In this document: piece after piece, positions 50,282 through 58,002 of the stretch | Position numbering within the stretch: the first letter of the stretch is position 1 | Layout: each line of letters opens with the position of its first letter | DNA from: Gemmatimonadota bacterium | GTDB lineage: Bacteria; Latescibacterota; UBA2968; UBA8231 | Direction of reading: 5' to 3' | DNA length: 64,000 nt | Assembly: GCA_009840005.1 (NCBI GenBank) | Contig: VXOR01000098.1 | Span: forward strand, 1-64,000 | Notes under the pieces: model-generated | What the model saw: the letters and a program-made list of their open reading frames with translations, nothing else | Databases searched by the model: none | What the model was told of the DNA's origin: nothing | Made by a program: the position numbers and the translations under genes

Positions 50282-50677
50282 TTGGAATTCGACACTAAAA
50301 AACTGTCCGCTACCCCTGACGTGATCGCCCCTGATGGCTCGGATGTGCGCATTCTATTGGGCCTGCAAGGCGGCGGCATGGCGCATTTTGAACTTCAACC
50401 CGGCCAGACATCCAAGGCCGTTGCCCACCGCACGGTCGAGGAGATTTGGTTTTTTCTCGCTGGCCGCGGTCAAATGTGGCGGCGGCAGGACGACCGCGAG
50501 GAAATCGTGGCGGTCGAGCCGGGCGTCTGCCTGACTATTCCGCTGGGCACCCACTTCCAGTTTCGCGCCTTGGGCGACGAGCCGCTCGCCGCGATTGCCG
50601 TTACCATGCCCCCGTGGCCCGGTGAGGACGAAGCCTATCCGGTCGGGGGGAAATGGTCGGAGACTGCGTCCGATTAG
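50282..50677 (+). CDS. Cupin-domain protein
   Basis: A 131-residue single cupin. The first cupin motif is split among HRTVEEIWFFLAGRGQMW (His and Glu ligands) and the second is PGVCLTIPLGTHFQFRA with the last His. It would be a small metal-binding dioxygenase, isomerase or sugar-binding protein; substrate unknown. The start is TTG at 50282 with GGGAG about 12 bases upstream, and no ATG comes before the first motif, so I accept it with some doubt. It is divergent from the small membrane gene. Confidence 0.88.
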   Translation: MEFDTKKLSATPDVIAPDGSDVRILLGLQGGGMAHFELQPGQTSKAVAHRTVEEIWFFLAGRGQMWRRQDDREEIVAVEPGVCLTIPLGTHFQFRALGDEPLAAIAVTMPPWPGEDEAYPVGGKWSETASD

Positions 50678-50756
50678 GCGAAGACAGGGCCTTCTCCGAA
50701 TCGGGTGTATCAGTGGCGACATTACCGTATATTACAAGGTGATTGGAGGTATTGTT

Positions 50757-50969
50757 ATGATTGAATCCTCTATTACAAAAAAAGGACAGACGACACTACC
50801 TAAGTCCGTGCGGGAGACACTTGGTCTAAAGGCTGGAGACCGGGTGCGCTACGTCATTTCCGACGGCGAGGTGCGGATGCTACCCTCCAGCACGACGGCC
50901 CCGCCGTCACTGCGGAAGAAATGGAACAGGCTACAGCCGATGGGGCTTGTGAGGCGTGAGCAAAAATAA
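50757..50969 (+). CDS. AbrB/MazE-type DNA-binding protein (antitoxin-like)
   Basis: A 70-residue protein that begins IESSITKKGQTTLPKSVRETLGLKAGDRVRYVI, the swapped-hairpin AbrB/SpoVT domain common in antitoxins and transition-state regulators. The ATG at 50757 has GGAGGT seven bases upstream; the longer frame at 50595 is antisense-like and ignored. The normally adjacent toxin (PIN or MazF) is not visible: the next two genes are an unknown membrane protein and an unknown small protein 38 bases downstream. It might regulate them instead. Confidence 0.85.
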   Translation: MIESSITKKGQTTLPKSVRETLGLKAGDRVRYVISDGEVRMLPSSTTAPPSLRKKWNRLQPMGLVRREQK

Positions 50970-52448: not shown

Positions 52449-53488
52449 TCATCTTGTCATACAGCCACCACGGCCGCGGCATCGGCCAGACCATCCGCGC
52501 CTTGGGGCACGATATAATTGGGGTTATGGATGGGGAAGAAGCCCCGCGCCAACAACTTGCAGAGATTTTCCAATGTCCGGGCTTTGCCACCGCGGGCGAG
52601 TGCCTCGACGCCGTGCAGCCCGACGCCGCCCTAGTCGCGGGCAAGCACATTGAAATGCCGGATCACGTGCAGGCCTGCGTCGATCGGCGCATTCCCTACC
52701 TGCTCGACAAACCCTTTGCCGATTGTGCTGCTCGGCTTCGCCCCGCAGCCGAAGCTTCGGCCAAACACGGGGTCTTCAGTGCCCTCACGCTGCCCAACCG
52801 CGCCAGCCGCATCGTTGCCACGGTGGAGCGTTTGTTAGCTGATGGTACGTTGGGCGATGTGGTCCAGTATAGCTGCCGCCTCAACAACGGCCCGCCCTCG
52901 CGCTACGACCCGACGCCCTCGGCTTGGCACAACGATCCGGCCATTTCCGGTGGCGGCAGTTGGGCCGTAGAGGCGGCCCACGGCATTGACACCTTTCTGC
53001 AATTTGTCGGCGAGCAGACGGTACACGTGGTCGGTGCTATCATGTCCAATGCCACGCACGGCCGTGTAGTGGAGGATATTGGTTTGGGAATGCTGCGCAC
53101 GGATGGGGGCGTGACCGGCGTTATCGAAAGCGGCTACGCCTATCCGTCAGGGGTGCGCAGCGGCGACCACTTCTTCCGCTTTATCGGCACTCGCGCCATG
53201 GTGTTCCAGCAATACGGCAAAGAGGGCGAGCCGCTCATCGAAGTCCACACTACCGAGGGCGTGCAATTCAGTGAGGATTTGTCGCACGGCGAGCGCATGA
53301 CGACCATTGTCGAGCAAGCCCTGACCGCTTTGGCAGATGGGCGGTCCTTCACCCCGAATGTTGACCAAGCCGTGCGCATCCTCGAAATACAGGATGCGGT
53401 GTACGACCGCGCCCGCCGAAGCTCGCTGACCAATGGGCCGCATCCCATGGGCAACCCGCCACCCGACCGCAGATCTCCCCATGACTAA
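52439..53488 (+). CDS. Gfo/Idh/MocA-family oxidoreductase
   Basis: A 349-residue NAD(P)-dependent oxidoreductase. MRLVILSYSHHGRGIGQTIRALG is the Rossmann entry, though the GxGxxG is irregular; IPYLLDKPFADCAARLRP holds the typical EKP-like Lys region of the family, and the C-terminal half (GSWAVEAAHGIDTFLQFVGE) is the sugar-binding beta-sheet domain with a His. These enzymes oxidise or epimerise sugars and cyclitols. ATG 52439 has GAGGAG upstream and overlaps the GNAT gene, so translational coupling is likely. It ends 13 bases from the convergent GTPase. Confidence 0.88.
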   Translation: MRLVILSYSHHGRGIGQTIRALGHDIIGVMDGEEAPRQQLAEIFQCPGFATAGECLDAVQPDAALVAGKHIEMPDHVQACVDRRIPYLLDKPFADCAARLRPAAEASAKHGVFSALTLPNRASRIVATVERLLADGTLGDVVQYSCRLNNGPPSRYDPTPSAWHNDPAISGGGSWAVEAAHGIDTFLQFVGEQTVHVVGAIMSNATHGRVVEDIGLGMLRTDGGVTGVIESGYAYPSGVRSGDHFFRFIGTRAMVFQQYGKEGEPLIEVHTTEGVQFSEDLSHGERMTTIVEQALTALADGRSFTPNVDQAVRILEIQDAVYDRARRSSLTNGPHPMGNPPPDRRSPHD

Positions 53489-53501
53489 TGTGCAGTGCGA
53501 C

Positions 53502-55781
53502 CTAAATCCCTTCTACTCTACCGCCGACCTCTTCAACAGCCTTCTTGACAACTTGGCGAACGTCATCCAAGAATTTTTGGGCCGCTATGCCCGTCACGGA
53601 AGTAATAGACGGGGCAGCCGCGTTATAAATCCGCTCTATCTCTTCTGCTCTTTGGTAGCTTGATCCTATGCCCCTGAAATCAAAAGCATCTTGCCATTCA
53701 CCGAGATGTTCATTGATTAGACGTCGCTTTGCCAAACGGTGGATGCGGTTAGACACTTTCTGGCGTATCGTGTTGATGGTAGCCTGCTTTTTATCGTCCG
53801 GCGGTGGGGGAGTTATGTCCCAGCGGTCAGGGGTCTCCAGCCATCGGGAAATGCTAGCCTCTAACTGGCGAATCAGATCACTCACCGGCCGTAATCCGTC
53901 ATATTGGTCGGCCCCCATAATGGCAAGGCGCCGACACAACGCCTTAACACGTGTCCAGTGTTCCTTAGAAATATCTTCATAATATCTAAGGCCTAGCCGT
54001 CCCCACCAAGGATTTTTGAACCCGTCGGTAGCGTCCCGTAGGGCGAGTTCTAGCTGGCCAATCTTATAGATTGGATTAGCATCAGGCAGGTCGGGAGATG
54101 TAGCCGATTCCTGCATCTTCTCCAATAGGCGGTTCATATCTTTGATGAAACCGGACGGTAGTCTATCGGTGGCCTGATTCAATCCACCCAAGTAAAAGTC
54201 ATTGTCCTTTAGTCGTTGCTCTAGCATCTCCATTACCGACGGTGTCAGTTTTTCACGCAGGCCATTAAGGGCATTGCCAATTGCGGCACGAACGTGATCT
54301 CTCTTCTGGGTATAGTTGCCGAGATTATCACCCTTTACTTGGTCAAAGTGTGTGAAAACGACAGAGATTTTGTATACGTGACCGCTGTTCCCGACCGTCT
54401 CTAAGAGTTGCAAGGGGGCGGCCTGCATGGGCGATTCTGCATTGTCCACCAGCAGAATCATATCCGTTTCAGAGAACCTTTCCGTTACCTTCGTGGATAT
54501 ACTCGTCGCTTCCTTCGCTGAATGGCCTAGTCCTTCGCCGTCCAGCAGCACGAGCTTTCGGTCATTGTCCTGTAGTTCAGGTTTGGCAGGCTGAAACGGC
54601 CCGCTCACTCGAATGCCGTTGACCAACGGGGTGAGTAGCCGCCCAAACTGCTGGCTATGGTTGCTGGTAAACCACCGCACCTGTTTCAAGAAGGTGTTGC
54701 GATCCTTTTCCTCGTAATACCAATGGGAGCACCAACCCGTTTTGCCGCTATCAAATATGCCCTCTTCAATCAAGTTGAACCTGTGTTGAACAGCCTCCAT
54801 TATGTCAAGGGAGAGCCGTGTGAAGTCTTGATTCTCGTACAGTACGTCTCTGAAATCTTCCAGCCAGTCCTGTCGCTTGTTGGGATTATCGATCCCCTTA
54901 AAATCGCCGAGTTTTTCCGCAGTTTGTTTCTGTACTGCTGCTGCCACTTCCTTGATACGGACGATGTACTCGGATAGGCGATCTTTATTCTCGGTGAGCT
55001 CAGTTCCAGCAACAATTTCGTCCTCCGCCAGAGTAGCGGCCTCAGTTTCTTCCTCTCCCATTTCGTATTCGTCATCCTCTTGCTCGGGCTGTTCCTGTTG
55101 CCAAGAACCGAGGATATAGGAGAGCCGAAAACGCTGTTCTCGATGTTCTAAGAGGGCAGCGGCGATATCCTTATCAGAGGCGTTGTCAATTGCACTGATG
55201 CACGCCTCCTCCAAGCATTCCTCAATATCCCCGCGGACCTCGTGCTCGGTCATAAAAGTAACTACAGCCTTGAAAGGATGGCTAGGGGTAATAACTATCT
55301 CGATGTCAGCCGTTGTTGTCTTTGCTGTTGATGTGGAAGGGAAACGATCGCTCTTGTGGTCGGAGCCAATAAGCTGGCGCAGAAGGGTGGTTTTGCCTGC
55401 TCCCGTGGGACCAACGAGCATCACTCGTGCATATCCGTCCTCTGGCGTAGGCAGTCTAATCATATCCTCTCGTAATTTTTTAGAATCGACGCGCCCAGCC
55501 TCCATGTTGTCAAAGAAGGCCGAAACAACGACGCTATCGAACTGCTGCTCGGCCTCGGCACGCCGGTCAAGACTCCACCAGGAGGAGTTGGCAAGCAGTT
55601 GGTTAAGCTGCTCAACCAGCCGATCAGCCTCGGCATCGTCCTTCGTCCCAAGACCACGCCGCACCTTTAGTCCAAATTTACCTCGGGTGTCTGTACGACG
55701 TGGATGGCTGAAAATTACGCTCCAGCCTGGTCGATTTTGTGAGCGCGTTTTGGATGCTTTGTAGGTGGTTTTGCTTGCCAT
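53502..55781 (-). CDS. Large P-loop GTPase with integrase-arm-like N-terminus
   Basis: A 759-residue protein. Residues 19-80 (GWSVIFSHPRRTDTRGKFG, VRRGLGTKDDAEADRLVEQL) look like the arm-type DNA-binding or SAM-like start of tyrosine integrases. Walker A GPTGAGKTT is at about 124-132, a Thr/Ser-rich switch (STAKTTTADIEIV) follows, Walker B is near 415 (LVLLDGEGLGH) and a G4-like VFTHFDQVKG near 475. Long helical segments fill the rest, as in dynamin-like GTPases. No transmembrane segment. Unlike its neighbours it is A/T-richer and has its own promoter with paired operators. I infer a DNA-linked GTPase, perhaps anti-phage; no family name is certain. Confidence 0.72.
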   Translation of the reverse strand: MASKTTYKASKTRSQNRPGWSVIFSHPRRTDTRGKFGLKVRRGLGTKDDAEADRLVEQLNQLLANSSWWSLDRRAEAEQQFDSVVVSAFFDNMEAGRVDSKKLREDMIRLPTPEDGYARVMLVGPTGAGKTTLLRQLIGSDHKSDRFPSTSTAKTTTADIEIVITPSHPFKAVVTFMTEHEVRGDIEECLEEACISAIDNASDKDIAAALLEHREQRFRLSYILGSWQQEQPEQEDDEYEMGEEETEAATLAEDEIVAGTELTENKDRLSEYIVRIKEVAAAVQKQTAEKLGDFKGIDNPNKRQDWLEDFRDVLYENQDFTRLSLDIMEAVQHRFNLIEEGIFDSGKTGWCSHWYYEEKDRNTFLKQVRWFTSNHSQQFGRLLTPLVNGIRVSGPFQPAKPELQDNDRKLVLLDGEGLGHSAKEATSISTKVTERFSETDMILLVDNAESPMQAAPLQLLETVGNSGHVYKISVVFTHFDQVKGDNLGNYTQKRDHVRAAIGNALNGLREKLTPSVMEMLEQRLKDNDFYLGGLNQATDRLPSGFIKDMNRLLEKMQESATSPDLPDANPIYKIGQLELALRDATDGFKNPWWGRLGLRYYEDISKEHWTRVKALCRRLAIMGADQYDGLRPVSDLIRQLEASISRWLETPDRWDITPPPPDDKKQATINTIRQKVSNRIHRLAKRRLINEHLGEWQDAFDFRGIGSSYQRAEEIERIYNAAAPSITSVTGIAAQKFLDDVRQVVKKAVEEVGGRVEGI

Positions 55782-55809
55782 CGTCTTTCTCCTTGATTGA
55801 GAAGATATG

Positions 55810-55892
55810 TTGTTCGATGTTGTAGCGAGAAAAGAAAATAGATAGCGACAAGCGTCTTGTCAAGAATTCTTAGTACAACATCGAACAACATT
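55810..55892 (-). promoter_or_regulatory. Promoter flanked by paired 17-bp operators
   Basis: On the minus strand TTGACA (55865-55860) and TATTTT (55842-55837) are separated by exactly 17 bases, a strong sigma70 promoter for the GTPase. It is bracketed by a perfect 17-base inverted repeat: TGTTGTTCGATGTTGTA at 55810-55826 (in the 5' leader) and its complement at 55876-55892 (just upstream of -35). This is the layout of operator sites allowing repression or looping. A second palindrome (GACAAG-CGT-CTTGTC, 55849-55863) lies between them. Confidence 0.75.
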
Positions 55893-55953
55893 GTTGTAGA
55901 TCTTAAGATGAAGCAACGTTCAACAGCCGAATGCGGGATCATCATGCGGATAT

Positions 55954-56081
55954 GCGGCGCGGCGGATAGCTACGGGCTGTAAGCTGCTTATATAGTTGGA
56001 TGGTTCGCTGAGCCGCGTCTTCCCATTTTGAAGGCCGCGGCTCGTTGGCATCCTTGGCGTAATAGTCGTTGGCGGGGAGCG
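55954..56081 (-). pseudogene. Degenerate copy of the 3' end of the GT4 gene
   Basis: 55954-56081 resembles the 3' end of the glycosyltransferase gene at about 56840-56951: GGCGCGGCGG, GCTGCTTATA, GTTCGCTG.GCCGCGTCTTCCCA, GGCTCGTTGGC.TCCTTGG and CGTTGGCGG blocks are shared in order. In translation it repeats the C-terminal GRQRAAAF block, but one extra base (TTCAAAATGG against TTCACGTGG) shifts the frame. It is a non-coding remnant, probably from duplication or from insertion of HicBA-region DNA between the two copies. 56082-56188 holds nothing more that I recognise. Confidence 0.6.
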
Positions 56082-56188
56082 ACGCGATTATGGGAATAGC
56101 GGGAGGAGCGCAGATTTACAGGATGTGTTCTGTCGTTATATATGGCTTGGGGCGGGCGTTGGGGTGGCGAGGGGGTGGTTGAAAACGA

Positions 56189-56440
56189 TCATTTCAAAAG
56201 TCCAAGACGCTCGAGGTCGTTCTCTCCCCACCGAACTTGTTTCTCAATGATTGACTTGAGAGTACCGATAGCAAAGGTCTGGTTCATATTGTGAAGGTGA
56301 ATAGTCGTCGTTCTCCCATCTGGGTGAATAAAAAGACGGATCGCGCCTTTCCTTTTGTATTCGCGAAACCCGTCTCTTTTTAATGCCCGTATCAATCTGC
56401 GTGCTGTCAGTGAGCGAAGTCTGCTATAATCAATCGCCAT
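56189..56440 (-). CDS. hicA: HicA-family mRNA interferase toxin
   Basis: An 83-residue toxin with the HicA double-stranded-RNA-binding-like fold: SLTARRLIRALKRDGFREYKRKGAIRLFIHPDGR (helix and strand with GFR and GA residues), then TTTIHLHNMN with the catalytic His residue region (IHLH), and a C-terminal helix GTLKSIIEKQ. The gene follows hicB after one base in the same transcript. Expected action is cleavage of mRNA when HicB is lost. ATG 56440 lies next to the hicB stop. Confidence 0.85.
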   Translation of the reverse strand: MAIDYSRLRSLTARRLIRALKRDGFREYKRKGAIRLFIHPDGRTTTIHLHNMNQTFAIGTLKSIIEKQVRWGENDLERLGLLK

Positions 56441-56441
56441 A

Positions 56442-56711
56442 CTAGACGGCTACGGCGACCAAAGGAACATCGCTGACCTGAATTTGCGAAGGTGGGTCAG
56501 TAGGTATGTCTTCTCCAATTTCCAGCAGATGCGCAACGAGAAGATCAACAGCATTTTCTAAATTCTCTAAAGCCTCTTTCTCAGTATATCCCCAACTCGC
56601 AGCCCCTTTATGCTCTAGCTCGGGAATATAGGCTCGCCAGACCGCTTTCTCATCGGGCTCATCGGGCCACTTGTCTTGCTCTAAAACAGCCTGAAACAAA
56701 TACGTTTTCAT
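56442..56711 (-). CDS. hicB: HicB-family antitoxin
   Basis: An 89-residue antitoxin of the HicB type: KTYLFQAVLEQDKW, WRAYIPELEHKGAASWGYTEKEALENLENAVDLLVAHL (the RNase H-like degraded fold with the GxTxxEALxN region) and a short variable tail VSDVPLVAVAV, which lacks a ribbon-helix-helix domain. AAAGGAGGG precedes the ATG. Here hicB comes first and hicA second, an order found in many HicBA modules. It would neutralise HicA and perhaps bind its own promoter through a partner. Confidence 0.85.
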   Translation of the reverse strand: MKTYLFQAVLEQDKWPDEPDEKAVWRAYIPELEHKGAASWGYTEKEALENLENAVDLLVAHLLEIGEDIPTDPPSQIQVSDVPLVAVAV

Positions 56712-56850
56712 ACAGATCCCTCCTTTTTATTCGCGCTTCAGAACCCCCTCGACGGGACCCGCCAGCTTCCTCGACTAGTAATAGTTTACAACTCGCGGCA
56801 AATTAACCCAAATGTGGAGCGGACCGGACGAGACGCCTGCGGCGCGGCGG

Positions 56851-58002
56851 CTATAGCTGCTTATACAATTGAATAGTTCGCTGGGCCGCGTCTTCCCACG
56901 TGAAGGCAGCGGCTCGTTGGCGTCCTTGGTGCGCTAGCCGTTGGCGGAGCGCGGAATCGGTTAGCAGGCGCTGCATCCCGGCGGCGATGGAGGCGGTGTC
57001 GAGCGGATCGACGAGCACTGCATCTTCTCCGGCGATTTCGGCGAGCGACGAACAGTTCGACGTGAGTACCGGACAGCCGCTGGCCATTGCTTCGAGTACG
57101 GGCAGCCCGAATCCTTCTATCAGCGATGGAAACGCGAAAAAGAGCGCGTGGGCAAAACAGGCGCGGATTTGCTCGTCGCTGAGTTGGCCGGCGAGGAGCA
57201 CCCGGTCGCTCAGGCCGAGTTGATGCGCCAGCATCACGAGTGCAGGATTGCCCTCGCCGCGGCCGGCGAACACGAGGGCGAGAGCGGGATAGTCCGAGGC
57301 GACTTGGGCAAAGGCACGCACCAGCCGAGGCAGGTTTTTGTAGGGTAAGCTGTTGCCTAGGCCAAAGACAAAGGGCCGTTTTGCAAGACCGGCGAGAATA
57401 TCCTGCTGCACACGGTTTTGGTCGGTCGCGTGGCCCAAGTCAAACTGGGCCGGTTCCGCGTTGTCCGAGTGCCAGGCGGAAGCCACGCCGTGGAGGATGG
57501 CGGTTACTTTGTCGGCGGAGACGCCGTGGTCGAGCGCAGCTTGGCGCGTACTGGCGGAGACGGCGACGATGTGGTCCGCCGTGTCGATGGCTCGGCGGAT
57601 ACCGAAGCTGCCCAGAGATCCTTTGACCCACCGCCGCCATCGCCGTCCGTCGGAGAGGTAAGAATGATCCACCCAGATCAGATCGTGCAGGGTGATGACG
57701 ACGCGCCGAGCGTGCACGCCGATGGGGAGAAAGTGGTATAGGGAGTGGTACACGTCGGCGTCGAGGGTGTTGATGACCCGGGCACCGGCGAGGATGTTGT
57801 GCGGCGAGGAAATATCGTGCGGTGAAAAAATTTCCCTGAAGTTGGCCTGATCGGCGATGGGACCGTGGCGAGAGGGTCGGCGGACGACGATGTACTCGTT
57901 TTCGCGGTCTAGCTTGGCGATGTGGCTGACGAGGTCGGCGGCGTAGCGGCCGAGGCTGGTGGGCACATCGCGCAGAGAGCGAGCGTCGATGCAGATCCTC
58001 AT
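56851..58002 (-). CDS. GT4-family glycosyltransferase
   Basis: A 383-residue glycosyltransferase of the GT-B fold, group 1. N-terminal MRICIDARSLRDVPTSLGRYAADL is the acceptor-side opening; the C-terminal half has FVFGLGNSLPYKNLPRLVRAF, FPSLIEGFGLPVLEAMASGCPVLTSNCSSLAEIAG (the ExFGxPxxEAMA sugar-nucleotide motif) and DPLDTASIAAGM. It adds a sugar to a lipid or glycan in the envelope. I start at ATG 58002, which overlaps the DUF3047 stop (ATGA); the longer frame to 58464 runs antisense to the DUF3047 coding logic. Last gene of a four-gene operon. Confidence 0.92.
   Translation of the reverse strand: MRICIDARSLRDVPTSLGRYAADLVSHIAKLDRENEYIVVRRPSRHGPIADQANFREIFSPHDISSPHNILAGARVINTLDADVYHSLYHFLPIGVHARRVVITLHDLIWVDHSYLSDGRRWRRWVKGSLGSFGIRRAIDTADHIVAVSASTRQAALDHGVSADKVTAILHGVASAWHSDNAEPAQFDLGHATDQNRVQQDILAGLAKRPFVFGLGNSLPYKNLPRLVRAFAQVASDYPALALVFAGRGEGNPALVMLAHQLGLSDRVLLAGQLSDEQIRACFAHALFFAFPSLIEGFGLPVLEAMASGCPVLTSNCSSLAEIAGEDAVLVDPLDTASIAAGMQRLLTDSALRQRLAHQGRQRAAAFTWEDAAQRTIQLYKQL

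Follow-up and report, generated by a model that had tools for sequence, protein, structure and literature searches.

Within a 64,000-nucleotide stretch of a Gemmatimonadota bacterium genome (contig VXOR01000098.1, positions 1 to 64,000; hereafter the window), one gene encodes a 759-residue protein whose opening resembles the arm domain of tyrosine integrases and whose remainder resembles a bacterial dynamin. Nearly all of the examined homologues in which this opening domain (the N-domain) is intact carry short tandem repeats on both sides of their own promoters, arranged as a candidate operator. The best explanation that we can offer, at a probability of roughly 0.6, is that the family consists of self-repressing 'trigger' GTPases that resemble PutA in their logic and are possibly anti-phage. 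Expression of the gene would probably be kept low by its own product until a trigger appears, possibly phage infection. An earlier note on this DNA, made from its letters alone, had proposed that the protein couples DNA recognition to GTP hydrolysis and assembly. The operator that accompanies the N-domain argues, at the level of sequence, for DNA recognition fused to a dynamin-like GTPase; the coupling itself is a conjecture.

The N-terminal domain and the GTPase core

The earlier note had compared residues 19-80 with integrase arm domains. The likeness holds, over the shorter extent of about residues 20-64, and by sequence it is weak. DUF6538, the Pfam family that matches the most N-domain members, was recovered from 13 of 29 diverse members with a best E value of 6.2e-4, below Pfam's cut-off, and the other 16 gave no DUF6538 match. 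Because a search at E 1e-3 found no DUF6538 in 11 genomes that carry the GTPase gene, we turned to other genomes for DUF6538 integrases; 27 matches there yielded 20 extracted open reading frames (ORFs), 10 of which were scanned. Of these 10, eight have a further match, at E ≤ 1e-3, to the catalytic or the SAM-like domain of integrases (for one of the eight this match is below Pfam's cut-off), and to judge by these matches the DUF6538 ORFs of other genomes are mostly tyrosine integrases. When the N-domain profile was compared with a profile of 20 integrase-arm sequences, residues 20-64 aligned with Prob 84.5, P 6.9e-6 and a score of 32.8. We rejected chance as the source of this likeness, given a maximum score of 16.9 in 100 column shuffles; the reversed profile reached 8.8, and a repetition with 16 integrases gave Prob 79. 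Neither the N-domain profile nor the integrase-arm profile found anything meaningful among Protein Data Bank (PDB) sequences. We regard the N-domain as a putative DUF6538-type arm domain, recognizable as a remote likeness below Pfam's cut-off.

The AlphaFold model of the whole protein predicts strands at residues 10-13, 20-30 and 36-43 followed by a helix at 49-64, and this strand-strand-strand-helix order is also that of integrase arm domains, which recognize short repeated arm-type sites. Conserved residues of the N-domain are R13, R17, F24, H26, P27, R29, K35, K39, R41, L44 and T46, and among the sequences compared (as many as 85) 92% or more have a basic residue at each of positions 13, 17, 29, 35, 39 and 41. 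Residues 1-64 carry a net charge of +8, compared with -28 for the remainder of the protein. The possibility that the protein is a true tyrosine integrase was rejected, as no catalytic-domain match appears among the families listed: PF00589 is not among the best 25 of 34 family matches of the whole protein, and these fall mostly on the P-loop. A search of a phage collection with the N-domain alone returned three weak matches, one of which was inspected. Four homologues of 683-688 amino acids (P0204, P0206, P0208 and P0211) begin within the N-domain helix; by eye, their short form seems to reflect the choice of start site and not a true loss of the domain.

The P-loop GTPase core that had been described in the 759-residue frame is present, with intact G1 (GPTGAGKTT, residues 124-132) and G3 (DGEG, 414-417) motifs and a G4-like THFD at 477-480. 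About 280 mostly helical residues separate G1 from G3. Across 85 sequences G124, G129, K130, T131, D414 and G417 are invariant, and T477 to D480 are nearly so. A first AlphaFold model built from 23 close sequences gave a poor core (predicted local distance difference test score, pLDDT, of 67) and was replaced by one built from the 85 sequences, in which the core reaches a pLDDT of 86.9 with a predicted template modelling (TM) score of 0.83. With this model, the nine first Foldseek matches are all of dynamin or mitofusin type (SynDLP at E 4.5e-7), with TM-scores of 0.23-0.26 by query length; the model contains long predicted helices. The alignment tool VIA ranked dynamins first with a Z of 15.4 and translation GTPases close behind at 14.6; its aligned rows cover mainly residues 106-682, and the structural libraries say almost nothing on the N-domain. 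Residues from 115 onward are modelled as a bacterial dynamin-like GTPase by predicted structure and fold matches, and the presumed G-domain has the P-loop and DxxG motif expected of the dynamin superfamily.

A candidate operator at the gene's own promoter

An inverted repeat of 25 bases, 88% complementary, lies at 55807-55831 and 55867-55891 of the window. When read towards the gene, it consists of two tandem pairs of 8-base-pair (bp) half-sites, inverted relative to one another, around the promoter-like sequence TTGACA-17-TATTTT (Table 1). If up to three mismatches are allowed, the distal-pair sequence matches these two pairs and nothing else in the 64-kb window, with 0.09 matches expected. 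The regulated promoter that the earlier note had assigned to this gene stands as an arrangement of operator pairs and of -35 and -10 hexamers, and this arrangement is confirmed as a set of candidate regulatory sites. An Rfam search of positions 53000-57000 gave no match.

Table 1. Positions of the GTPase gene, its predicted domains and its candidate control elements in the window
Feature	Position	Strand	Description	Basis
Coding sequence	53502..55781	minus	Integrase-arm-like N-domain and dynamin-like GTPase, 759 amino acids	
C-terminal helical part	53505..54086	minus	Residues 566-759	AlphaFold model
GTPase core	54087..55439	minus	Residues 115-565	AlphaFold model, Foldseek and VIA matches
N-domain core	55590..55754	minus	Residues 10-64, three strands and a helix	Profile comparison, model, conservation
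Likely ribosome-binding site	55789..55794	minus	AAGGAG, before the ATG at 55781	Sequence
Proximal tandem pair	55809..55826	minus	GCTACAAC-AT-CGAACAAC, inverted relative to the distal pair	
-10 hexamer	55835..55840	minus	TATTTT, 17-bp spacer	Agreement with the consensus; by chance alone the scanned stretch would contain about 0.5 such sites
-35 hexamer	55858..55863	minus	TTGACA, 8 bp after the distal pair	
Distal tandem pair	55872..55889	minus	GTTGTTCG-AT-GTTGTACT, 10-bp period	

We inspected the DNA upstream of homologues from genomes, plasmids and viral contigs, which span several phyla and share 36-100% identity. Tandem pairs flank the promoter on both sides in 34 of 35 loci with an intact N-domain, a set that leaves out one locus with a cut N-terminus (L026), second copies (L028-L032) and fragments (L056 and L057). 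The pairs are inverted in 32 loci and, by eye, share a single orientation in L005 and L053. The layout is not fully conserved: L004, a near twin of L005, has the proximal pair and lacks the distal one. A tRNA-Gln gene lies in this locus about 80 bases upstream of the GTPase start (L004:21-94, plus strand). In L059, an Azospirillum plasmid copy, the operator precedes an upstream DUF4258 gene that apparently forms a two-gene operon with the GTPase gene, and there are three proximal half-sites rather than two (L059:7563-7654).

Among 21 representatives sharing less than 80% identity, 19 exceed all 300 shuffles when L059 is counted from its operon start (from its own start, p 0.78); the exceptions are L053 (p 0.007) and L004 (p 0.03). 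The consensus half-site is GTTGTTCC, in which positions 1, 3, 4, 5 and 7 are kept in 75 to 80 of 80 half-sites drawn from 20 representatives (L053 and L004 excluded, L140 included), and these are upper values because half-sites were chosen for their likeness to the consensus. The consensus behind both the shuffles and the 80-site count was taken from the same loci and is partly circular, which lowers the weight that either can lend to our interpretation. In 21 of 22 loci the sequence TTGAC is present in the interval that separates the called pairs. Half-sites within a pair are 10-11 bp apart, and the starts of the two pairs are 60-65 bp apart, or about six helical turns, in 14 of 19 loci.

The pattern is closely tied to the gene. 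In a collection of 2.9 million viral contigs the strict operator pattern occurs in 12, all of them GTPase carriers that had each turned up independently by protein search, and a version with 11-bp spacing occurs in two, both with family members. Among 301 Chloroflexota genomes, a set centred on a genome that was itself chosen as a carrier, the strict pattern is present in three, all belonging to the four full-length carriers, and a reversed control pattern is present in none. The N-domain is similarly confined. Its profile finds 16 loci in the viral collection, all of which encode the GTPase (15 on known carrier contigs, plus the new locus L140), and in 142 alphaproteobacterial genomes it matches three, in each case at the GTPase gene.

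L140, which was found later and is not among the 35 loci, is divergent (L140:1074-3353, with DTEGLGH at G3). It has both pairs in the same layout, built from variant GATGTGCC/GGTGTGCC half-sites. Conversely, the N-domain is missing in four homologues from Rhodococcus plasmids. Because operons can shift an operator upstream, their whole loci (8-18 kb) were scanned; no operator-like layout was found there, and the three isolated pairs at the 13-of-16 level lie neither near the gene nor near its operon. Two of these homologues (L035:6524-7926 and L060:4546-5947) are preceded by two or three small genes of unknown function, those of L035 without a Pfam match, as if other proteins had taken over control.

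These observations bear on whether the operator belongs to a host regulator, with the N-domain instead binding nucleic acid non-specifically or binding protein. The operator could in principle be read by another protein, and this counts against a self-repressing GTPase. We nevertheless rejected a host-regulator site and consider it highly improbable: in the viral contigs and Chloroflexota genomes searched, the strict pattern occurs only with this gene. A looser pattern adds to the same 12 viral contigs a single contig without a family gene (L152), at about the level expected by chance. Moreover, the pattern spans several phyla and changes its letters in L140, and the scan of homologues without an N-domain did not find it.

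A further correlation concerns half-site spacing. Seven loci have one extra residue in the hairpin that joins strands 2 and 3, and their half-sites are spaced by 11 bp, while 25 loci with the commonest hairpin length and three with a shorter one have 10-bp spacing, such that hairpin length and spacing agree in all 35 loci first tabulated. L140 weakens this argument, with a hairpin that exceeds the commonest length by two residues and half-sites spaced by 10 bp. When the GTPase parts are placed on a tree, the seven 11-bp loci form one group, with the four Rhodococcus rows nested within it or sister to it, and each correlation may for this reason rest on one event, which the Fisher p values calculated for them leave out of account. 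The link between hairpin and spacing then represents at most one evolutionary event, and the Rhodococcus homologues, being one group, may have lost domain and operator together once; both facts detract from the case for an N-domain that reads these sites. The absence of the operator in Rhodococcus is firmer after the whole-locus scan.

Distribution and neighbours

The family is large. With the window protein as query, at least 4040 of 7999 candidates scored match at E ≤ 1e-3, and with a second starting member at least 3528 of 7998 do so, although the weakest matches may have only the P-loop in common. Database names among the matches listed are 'hypothetical protein', 'ATP-binding protein' and mis-assigned transporter or signal recognition particle (SRP) receptor subunits. 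One entry (P0002), attributed to a Gemmatimonadetes bacterium metagenome-assembled genome, is 100% identical to the window protein.

The gene is distributed sporadically. In counts that include the chosen centre genomes, full-length carriers number 4 of 301 in Chloroflexota. The class of genome G002 has 4 of 385 (full or split over two contigs, with a fifth genome holding a C-terminal piece), the class of G003 has 1 of 369, and the relatives of G090 have 2 of 151, both previously found. Of 72,556 plasmid records, 11 contain a relative, and in five of these the N-domain part is missing; the full protein matched nothing in 50,697 phage records. In ten viral-bin contigs (L014-L021, L024 and L027) the GTPase gene, with its own promoter, sits beside phage structural genes. 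These contigs have a downstream gene in common, the representative of which matches phrog_6367, of unknown function, and other neighbour clusters have representatives that fall into families of minor tail, tape measure and terminase proteins. We read these copies as a gene added to the tail region of a prophage.

Two rival explanations can be judged against this distribution. First, the gene might encode an autoregulated dynamin that serves the ordinary repair or remodelling of membranes, happens to travel horizontally and has no role in conflict. Its dynamin-like fold is consistent with this, B. subtilis DynA is described as acting in membrane surveillance, and L033 shows that some copies lie beside metabolic genes. 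The sporadic occurrence in Chloroflexota and in the classes of G002 and G003, together with the phage-type contigs and defence neighbours, makes such a housekeeping task improbable.

Second, the gene might be a one-protein module for DNA segregation or anchoring, in which the operator is also centromere-like and the GTPase nucleates on, moves or anchors DNA. The layout is reminiscent of the ParR iterons around the R1 par promoter. The parC sites of ParMRC systems (R1, pB171) are described as iterons of 10-11 bp that adjoin or surround the promoter of the operon (PMC9426499), and candidate iterons at its own promoter are what the window gene appears to have. In ParMRC, ParR is a separate adaptor, typically of ribbon-helix-helix type, with ParM as its partner, whereas the window system is a single protein. 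Some copies are on plasmids, and a single target per genome would suit an anchor. E. coli CrfC is likewise a dynamin-like GTPase linked to DNA, through nucleoid organization: it is presented as a nucleoid partition factor without a typical membrane-binding motif (PMC6374313, seen in excerpt). Unlike the window protein, CrfC reaches DNA by a clamp-binding motif, and the same excerpt describes no integrase-like domain in it. We assign segregation a low probability, because so few plasmid records have a relative and nearly half of these are without the N-domain part, because the ten viral-bin contigs carry the gene beside phage structural genes, because there are usually only two sites per side, and because no neighbour recurs outside close relatives (in a survey that made no search aimed at replication genes).

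Genes closely adjoining the GTPase gene do occur in some loci, encoding 490 amino acids in L007 and L008, 598 in L058 and the DUF4258 protein in L059. In the two related loci L007 and L008 the 490-residue gene, of unknown function, begins where the GTPase gene ends (L007:10232-11701 and L008:3435-4904), and the L007 copy has no match in PADLOC. Such neighbours would suit a protein that is a regulator and nothing else, a GTP-sensing transcription factor that controls itself and an occasional adjoining gene. The same can be said of the tandem sites, which are essentially confined to the family's own promoter: the 11 carrier genomes contain 20 tandem pairs, 17 of them at that promoter and three elsewhere, with five for a control pattern, and one of these genomes (G005) gave no match because its half-sites differ. 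We hold a pure regulator to be very unlikely, since among the loci compared no neighbouring gene recurs outside close relatives, a protein that regulated nothing but itself would still require some effector function, and the body of the protein is a large dynamin-like machine.

Defence genes are frequent among the neighbours. PADLOC profiles match seven of ten chosen neighbours, comprising AbiEii, a CBASS phospholipase-cyclase pair, a type I restriction enzyme, a type II helicase, an HNH protein and a ZorD/DpdE-like helicase. Near the four Rhodococcus homologues lie Abi_2, type I restriction, N-6 methylase and BREX genes. The earlier note had named an outcome that would speak against it, namely a simple GTPase extension without arm likeness in housekeeping contexts; arm likeness holds, and a survey of neighbourhoods finds the gene on viral-collection contigs, on plasmids and among defence genes, with some copies beside metabolic genes. 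We treat a defensive role as a reasonable conjecture.

The PADLOC profile for mad8, of the MADS defence system, matches residues 120-346 of the window protein (E 8.1e-7). The likeness is not specific: the profile also matches two control ORFs at E ≤ 1e-10, the best at 1.9e-16, and for this want of specificity we set aside the reading of the protein as a MADS component. Two neighbour ORFs in 17 surveyed loci match mad2.

Proposed mechanism and relation to known systems

We propose that the gene is a horizontally mobile, usually single-gene accessory module, in which a soluble dynamin-like GTPase would be the repressor of its own transcription. In the first step the N-domain would bind tandem GTTGTTCC half-sites about one helical turn apart at its own promoter, in two pairs that lie mostly about six turns apart and flank the -35 and -10 hexamers; on the sequence evidence, we consider such binding very likely. 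In the second, dimers or short oligomers would bridge both pairs, block RNA polymerase and keep the GTPase scarce, and autorepression of this kind is likely given where the operator lies. In the third, a stimulus might release the GTPase from DNA to act at the membrane, most plausibly against phage. Release and membrane action are suggested by analogy with PutA and DynA. An anti-phage or anti-mobile-element role has about even odds, and the precise switch that we have drawn is unlikely to be correct in every part.

A more tentative and rather doubtful extension is that of a DNA-anchored dynamin, for which the operator would be both repressor site and place of GTPase assembly. At rest, a small complex of arm domains would sit on its own promoter; upon infection the protein would leave the operator or polymerize from it, such that one gene would be sensor, repressor and membrane effector. 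If true, a single gene would serve as an immune switch that prophages, plasmids and chromosomal islands carry across phyla, and to our knowledge no described dynamin or defence system is like it.

Several observations weigh against a self-repressing trigger GTPase with a role in defence. The G4 position reads THFD rather than TKxD, nearly without exception (SRMD in L140). No transmembrane-like segment was seen in the window protein, and for this reason the membrane step rests on analogy. Three of the ten chosen neighbours have no PADLOC match, and L033 sits among metabolic genes. A bulk survey at 1e-10 covered 17 loci picked for flank length (the ten viral-bin contigs and short loci were excluded) and scanned 140 of 144 neighbour ORFs, many of them mechanical ORFs and not genes. 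These 140 ORFs matched 216 PADLOC families, compared with 17 for 92 control ORFs from seven stretches; both counts are inflated by redundant models, and the control stretches themselves contain BREX-like genes.

With a DNA-binding-type domain fused to an enzyme and a candidate operator at its own promoter, the window protein has the predicted organization of PutA. In an excerpt of one account, PutA has an N-terminal DNA-binding domain fused to an enzyme, represses its own gene and switches to a membrane-associated form (PMC5293562). There the combination is a ribbon-helix-helix domain with a flavoenzyme, compared with an arm domain and a GTPase here, for which the switch is our proposal.

From SynDLP, Campylobacter DLP1/DLP2, IniA, B. 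subtilis DynA and the mitofusins the window protein differs by its G1-G3 interval, and from described bacterial dynamins by its N-terminal domain with an operator of its own, a feature that we know of in no described dynamin. The titles and abstract openings of open-licence PubMed Central papers, among the matches listed, include no dynamin-like protein with a sequence-specific DNA-binding domain, and no open-licence paper searched there contains DUF6538. The DUF6538 integrase arm has the profile likeness and predicted strand order seen in the N-domain, and the window sites, unlike those of tyrosine integrases, lie on either side of the promoter of the gene itself and not around an att core. 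We call the family a new combination of two known kinds, the autogenous repressor enzyme and the bacterial dynamin.

The analysis supplies a poorly named family with a fold, a probable DNA-binding domain and an exact candidate recognition site of 8 bp, and the operator pattern offers a cheap genome marker for its members. If the proposal is true, it would extend dynamin-like machines to sequence-specific control of DNA and provide, in one compact gene, a model for effectors that repress themselves until they are called for.

In its local setting, the gene is richer in A/T than its surroundings, as had been noted: its G+C content is 51.3%, lower than the 58.9% of the window (rank 12 among 618 overlapping windows). 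By eye, an oxidoreductase-like frame ends 14 bases from it. Upstream, at 56189-56711 (minus strand), is a HicA/HicB-like toxin-antitoxin pair with weak PDB matches (HicA to 4c26, E 0.008, and 1whz, 3.8e-5; HicB to 6g1c, E 0.0045). A short frame at 50595-50969 (plus strand) has, by eye, a C-terminal half like an AbrB/SpoVT-type antitoxin. Finally, homologues P0031 and P0117 list the same longest contig, of 7,998,203 bases, which suggests that two different copies of the gene reside in one genome.

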